This document shows, piece after piece, positions 51,838 to 52,044 of a stretch of 64,000 nucleotides of DNA. The DNA comes from Halorubrum salinarum (GTDB lineage Archaea; Halobacteriota; Halobacteria; Halobacteriales; Haloferacaceae), in the NCBI RefSeq assembly GCF_013267195.1, contig NZ_CP053941.1:2108001-2172000 (forward strand), written 5' to 3'. Below the pieces are notes generated by a model that had not been told where the DNA came from, did not search any database, and saw only the letters and a list, made by a program, of their open reading frames with translations. Both the position numbers and the translations under genes were made by a program. Positions within the stretch are counted from its first letter, which is position 1. The number at the start of each line of letters is the position of its first letter.

Positions 51838-51848
51838 CTATTTATAAA
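51838..51848 (+). promoter_or_regulatory. TATA box before candidate noncoding RNA
   Basis: CTATTTATAAA at 51838-51848 matches the haloarchaeal TATA box very well and stands in an otherwise GC-rich gap. A plus-strand start would fall at about 51865-51870, exactly where the first hairpin begins. The same 11 bp recur at 51984-51994. Confidence 0.55.
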
Positions 51849-51864
51849 CGAAGCCCGTGCGGTG

Positions 51865-51970
51865 GCGCGTGCCGACGAGCGGCCGTAGGCCGCGAGTCGC
51901 ACGCGCGAGGGAGTCGCTGGCGGCTGGCGCCGCCAGCGACGAGGCTGGGGCTTTGGCGGTGTTCGCCGTC
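51865..51970 (+). ncRNA. Candidate structured noncoding RNA
   Basis: No credible protein lies here. From ~51865 the plus strand folds as a compound hairpin: stem GCGCGTGC (51865-51872) with GCACGCGC (51899-51906), one bulged C, GAC (51874-51876) with GTC (51896-51898), tandem G-A mismatches (51877-51878 against 51894-51895), then GCGGCC-GTA-GGCCGC. A second hairpin GTCGCTGGCGGC (51913-51924), loop TGGC, GCCGCCAGCGAC (51929-51940) is perfect over 12 bp. A small GGCG/CGCC hairpin follows at 51955-51967. A TATA box lies the right distance upstream. Closely similar strings seem familiar from other Halorubrum intergenic regions, but I cannot verify this. The 3' end is not defined. Confidence 0.5.
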
Positions 51971-51982
51971 GACCCGTCAGCA

Positions 51983-51998
51983 GCTATTTATAAATAGC
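51983..51998. promoter_or_regulatory. Perfect palindromic TATA element
   Basis: GCTATTTATAAATAGC at 51983-51998 is a perfect 16-bp palindrome built around a TATA box. Being symmetric it could drive transcription either way, or bind a dimeric protein. It repeats the 11-bp CTATTTATAAA found at 51838-51848, so the two copies flank the structured segment as direct repeats. Confidence 0.5.
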
Positions 51999-52044
51999 CG
52001 GTCACGGGGACGAAATCAGCGAAAACGGGGTCAATCACGTAGTC

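Follow-up and report, generated by a model that had tools for sequence, protein, structure and literature searches.

A probable truncated copy of a dispersed, structured intergenic repeat family of the class Halobacteria, with likeness to bacterial REPINs

Introduction

Bacterial REP, BIME, and REPIN sequences, together with their RAYT partner, are the best point of comparison for the element described here. Like it, they exist as many short palindromic copies between genes, persist at orthologous sites, form head-to-head (inverted) doublets with a short spacer, and are nearly absent from plasmids and phages. In contrast to them, our element is archaeal and has a larger multi-hairpin fold. In addition, REP and REPIN hairpins have GTAG/GGAG beside them; our alignments hold no invariant GTAG, and the GAGGGAG and GAGG blocks that adjoin our hairpins would at most be candidate equivalents. 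Among haloarchaea, the PATEs and SMRs of Haloquadratum are likewise transposase-free, palindrome-rich dispersed repeats, and SMRs insert into palindromes (PMC3119063). However, the ends of PATEs resemble those of IS605 (PMC3119063), a link that we did not find for the element in its own genome (that of the window), and the copies described here have covarying, multi-domain folds across an entire class. Finally, the RNA families of Rfam 15 also combine conserved secondary structure with compensatory changes, but the element matches none of them and has far more copies per genome than typical noncoding RNA genes.

Results

The segment under study (positions 51838-51998 of the window, by which we mean the whole 64-kb stretch of DNA that was analyzed) occupies the gap between a VLRF1 gene and a DUF5802 gene. 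Its features are given in Table 1. The open reading frames across it are short and unconvincing (42 and 46 aa), in agreement with a sequence-only reading that no protein explains the segment, and the hairpins described in that reading are all present in both the sequence and the predicted fold. The fold z-score was -5.6 on the + strand and -7.6 on the - strand, and no shuffled sequence was as stable. The border palindrome occurs at two sites only in the window, which are the two borders of the segment.

Table 1. Features of the segment, in window coordinates
Feature	Position	Strand	Remarks
Left border palindrome TTTATAAA	51841-51848	none	Taken for a TATA box in the sequence-only reading
Hairpin I module	51859-51912	+	GCGGT, 8-bp stem, covarying 3-bp stem, tandem GA/GA, 6-bp stem, GAGGGA
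Hairpin I, 8-bp stem GCGCGTGC/GCACGCGC	51865-51872 / 51899-51906	+	Sequence and fold
Hairpin I, 3-bp stem GAC/GTC		+	Sequence and fold
Hairpin I, tandem mismatch GA/GA	51877-78 / 51894-95	+	Sequence and fold
Hairpin I, 6-bp stem GCGGCC-GTA-GGCCGC		+	Loop GTA; sequence and fold
Hairpin II cassette	51913-51940	+	Perfect 12 bp, TGGC loop
Deletion junction	51941-51956	+	First GAGGCTGGGG of the linker joined to last GGCTGGGGCTTTGG
Tail (E) unit, one	51943-51994	+	GGCTGGGGCTTTGG ... TTTATAAA
Right border palindrome TTTATAAA	51987-51994	none	Right border kept across orthologous loci

Reading of the copies revealed a full element of ~260 nt that consists of hairpin I, hairpin II, a G-rich linker running GAGGCTGGGGAGG..GGGACTCAAAGGGGCAG, hairpin III, and a tail repeat of ~57 bp (GGCTGGGGCTTTGG..TTATAA) that elsewhere stands in tandem in 1-4 copies. 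The segment is an internally deleted copy of this element. The model R1, which comprises hairpin I, hairpin II, and the linker, matched it at 51859-52001 with 83.5 bits, a match that covers the hairpin I module. Judged against full-length copies, ~120-150 nt (linker and hairpin III) are absent at the junction, where the window copy runs directly from the first GGCTGGGG to the last GGCTGGGG. A second model (R2), which represents hairpin III and was built from 39 units found in a 19-nt core search, all from genera other than Halorubrum, gave no match in the window copy but did match other copies. Hairpin III was probably lost through deletion between two GGCTGGGG repeats. The sequence-only reading had missed both this deletion and the class-wide extent of the family.

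A BLASTN search of the own genome with the segment, which that reading had proposed, returned 62 matches; the 5' half and the tail were often matched apart, on the same strand with 150-280 bp between them. R1 identified 71 places, of which 70 were on the main chromosome (C1), one on C2, and none on C3. Mean spacing was ~42 kb, with both strands used along the chromosome in no evident pattern. According to a codon-based gene finder written for this analysis, all 70 copies examined were intergenic (40 in tandem, 21 in convergent, and 9 in divergent gaps). Orientation relative to genes showed no preference, either for these copies or for 81 units from across the class, and we therefore rejected a cis-regulatory leader or terminator, for which gene-end preference was missing as well. 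On the main chromosome, five pairs of copies face inward at a distance of 0.6-1.6 kb (G000:C1: 285923/286992, 619381/620934, 990368/991185, 1333483/1334132, and 1430793/1432102); outward-facing pairs at that distance were not seen there.

The family spans the class Halobacteria. R1 matched all 52 genomes of the genus Halorubrum. The suspicion of recurrence in Halorubrum voiced in the sequence-only reading is borne out and was too modest. Most of the genus had at least 59 matches; counts were low (11-29) in G021, G025, G029, G034, G037, G041, and G049, some of which are incomplete assemblies. Across the class, weaker matches in 151 of 391 genomes kept the order of the parts, GAAAG/CTTTC replacing CAAAG/CTTTG. 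The 19-nt core search gave at least 120 stretches. The 80 record titles listed among its matches were haloarchaeal, although the title for the uncultured archaeon A07HN63 states no class. R2 was positive in 63 of the 81 genomes sampled from Halobacteriales and in none of 312 genomes of other Halobacteriota, and it recovered the hairpin III of Halorubrum with E values down to 1e-25. Class-wide units were intergenic in 80 of 81 cases. In several genera outside Halorubrum, they form head-to-head doublets with a spacer of ~25 bp, which is not the usual form within Halorubrum.

Searches of viral contigs and phage records gave no matches, and 3 of 72,556 plasmid records contained the element, which led us to reject phage or plasmid cargo. 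A known Rfam family was rejected on the grounds that neither the window copy nor full copies nor hairpin III units matched anything in Rfam 15. Our literature searches of open-access papers recovered work on PATEs, MITEs, and SMRs and no description of this element; the family is new to Rfam and to the papers searched.

Compensatory stem changes, another check raised by the sequence-only reading, were present. Covariation was strong, with 22 of 32 pairs changed on both sides (0 of 500 shuffles). Both-side changes affected 28 of 64 consensus pairs among the own-genome copies and made up 46 cells in hairpins I and II, compared to 21 in shuffles. For hairpin III across genera, there were 227 such cells versus 71 when shuffled, and the score of 0.479 dropped to at most 0.107 when partners were slid, that is, the signal was lost. 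Part of this covariation is exchange of whole hairpins, and it is therefore not to be read as base-by-base compensation throughout. The tandem GA/GA positions of hairpin I were invariant or nearly so while the surrounding helices varied. This speaks for the maintenance of a specific single-strand fold rather than of a mere palindrome. Block conservation within alignment A3 is by selection, because its units were picked by an exact 5' match with a nearby GGGGCTTTC, but the same blocks were conserved in alignments A1 and A2 without that selection. Four G-tracts are conserved in the element; judging from these tracts alone, they could form a quadruplex-duplex in molar potassium. By eye, the inner part of hairpin III appeared inverted relative to most copies in L028, L076, L080, and L197, an observation for which we claim no frequency, as fuzzy patterns matched both orientations in 19 copies.

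Sequence was kept less well than shape. Element identity was 0.725 at orthologous sites versus 0.717 at random sites, with a within-genome mean for the G022 set that is biased upwards by the choice of that set from top model scores. The corresponding values for the DUF5802 set were 0.721 and 0.703, while identity of the neighboring DUF5802 gene averaged 0.91. Given this equality of orthologous and random sites, we rejected strict orthologous descent for the element body as a whole. Turnover of the hairpins is much faster than that of the neighboring gene, apparently via exchange of ready-made cassettes. For example, between two genomes whose DUF5802 genes are 98% identical (G050 and G016), the flanks and single-stranded linkers align closely, and the inner stem of hairpin I, hairpin II, and hairpin III differ, each still being self-complementary. 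Of eight genomes tested, seven carried the hairpin II cassette of G016 (38 nt, at most 3 mismatches) in 3-11 copies each, other loci included; the own genome had 0 copies at that tolerance. The copy at C1:1889931 has the same hairpin II as the window copy (query 26-121, 94% identity). Recombination between copies is the simplest reading of such recurrence, for which no donor-recipient pair was traced.

Copies are common to orthologous sites in many species and absent or decayed in others. Among 20 syntenic species, 19 have a recognizable element between DUF5802 and VLRF1, with orientation unchanged throughout; the site in L075 has none. Internal deletions affect two of the 19, L091 and the window copy. 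The latter is probably a relic, its site being one that still carries a full element in most syntenic relatives. After pdxS, a full-length element is present in at least eight species, with one further copy cut by a contig end, and the own genome and a few others have remnants or rearrangements. One of these sites (L205, in G042) is rearranged into a palindromic form, in which hairpin I and hairpin II are followed by a hairpin I in inverted orientation. The hemA-Nif3 junction is filled in 11 species (378-642 bp) and empty in 7 (44-150 bp), with both genes conserved and with exact boundaries that could not be placed. Comparison of G022 with the own genome put 9 of 21 compared copies at a common site (eight plus the DUF5802 site).

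The sequence-only reading had also proposed a near-consensus TATA box at 51838-51848 and a start on the first base of the first stem. In haloarchaea, the center of a TATA box canonically lies ~26-27 nt before the start, a spacing that puts the start near 51871, inside the 5' arm. Among own-genome copies, TTATAA was found at most 45 bp upstream in 18 of 66, centered 12-23 nt from the stem (background intergenic windows, 0 of 118), and copies in other genera mostly lacked it. The AT palindrome stands at both borders and between tail repeats; within 60 bp after the E motif, its center was 35 nt beyond the motif in 11 of 15 cases. It is tied to the element as a border repeated after tail units and not as a promoter at fixed spacing. 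We rejected a promoter with its start at the stem, which fits neither the distance to the stem nor the presence in 18 of 66 copies only. What stands of the original proposal is a dispersed, structured, noncoding intergenic element; the promoter-bearing RNA with a defined start is not supported.

Discussion

We consider it somewhat probable that the segment represents one truncated member of a noncoding repeat family that is dispersed over the chromosomes of the class Halobacteria and acts like bacterial REP, REPIN, or BIME sequences. A conserved host protein would recognize the conserved + strand fold, with its tandem GA motifs and four G-tracts, as single-stranded DNA or RNA. Copies would spread rarely with a helper, and recombination between them would keep shape, but not sequence, uniform. 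Consistent with this REP-like reading, a + strand fold with purine-purine internal loops is conserved from genus to class, and the same hairpin sequences are found at different loci while orthologous loci differ. Yet, deletion could account for the empty sites, a functional RNA would likewise have motifs conserved across the class, and for an active mobile element it is unusual to be almost missing from plasmids. Furthermore, no target-site duplication could be defined, and a search of the own genome for a mobilizer or Y1/RAYT partner recovered four Y1 transposases (PF01797), all at ordinary IS200/IS605-type loci and none flanked by copies, in which the element differs from REPINs.

If the REP-like reading is right, haloarchaea have in common a population of structured repeats between their genes that is ancient and can be compared to bacterial REPINs. 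Such a population would be a test case for the long persistence of repeats without obvious parasitism, for what preserves shape while sequence is swapped, and for the role of G-rich folds in cells with molar potassium. It also carries a warning that covariation may arise partly from cassette exchange. More tentatively, and short of calling it probable, we suggest an undescribed class-wide archaeal system in which a single-strand architecture (tandem GA and a G-quadruplex-duplex core) would be preserved by cassette exchange among tens of copies and served by a dedicated protein partner.

Alternatively, the copies would be stand-alone genes for structured noncoding RNAs, putatively transcribed from their own or a neighboring promoter, acting in trans, and dispersed by gene duplication. 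Such a family would account for deep covariation, for noncanonical purine motifs conserved on one strand, for invariant sequence blocks, and for the TATA-like sequence retained upstream at the DUF5802 site. We regard it as unlikely, given that the promoter at constant spacing expected of such genes was not found, that there is no evident T-rich terminator, that the TATA-like palindrome is too near the stem where it occurs at all, that copies have no preferred orientation to genes, and that truncation and loss are frequent.

It seems quite improbable that the copies are double-stranded DNA sites for chromosome organization, for example for the binding of nucleoid or replication proteins. Near confinement to the main chromosome, the mean spacing given above, near absence from plasmids and viruses, and conserved G-tracts with AT palindromes would fit such sites, but conservation acts on base pairing within one strand, purine mismatches included, for which a site bound as duplex has no need, and both strands are used without evident pattern. 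Least of all do we credit descent from a known haloarchaeal insertion sequence (IS200/IS605, for example) in the form of a MITE, a PATE, or another derivative: haloarchaea have many such elements (PATEs with near-terminal palindromes and SMRs inserting into palindromes; PMC3119063), and double-hairpin inserts are nested in our copies, but Y1 transposase loci of the own genome lack the element's ends and the distribution is plasmid-poor, so that this origin is very improbable indeed.

The nested double-hairpin inserts themselves lie within hairpins of the element, with examples of the form GTTCGAAAGGCGC..GCGCCTTTCGTGATGACGAGAG..CTCTCGAACCAC and GTCGCCGGCG..CGCCGGCTGCCAGAGGGACC..GGTCCCTCGCTGGA. 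They were seen in hairpin III of L005, L033, and L037, in hairpin I or II of L029, L076, and L087, and in L002, L250, and L278. Some occur in both orientations, and they resemble the palindrome-targeting SMRs of Haloquadratum.
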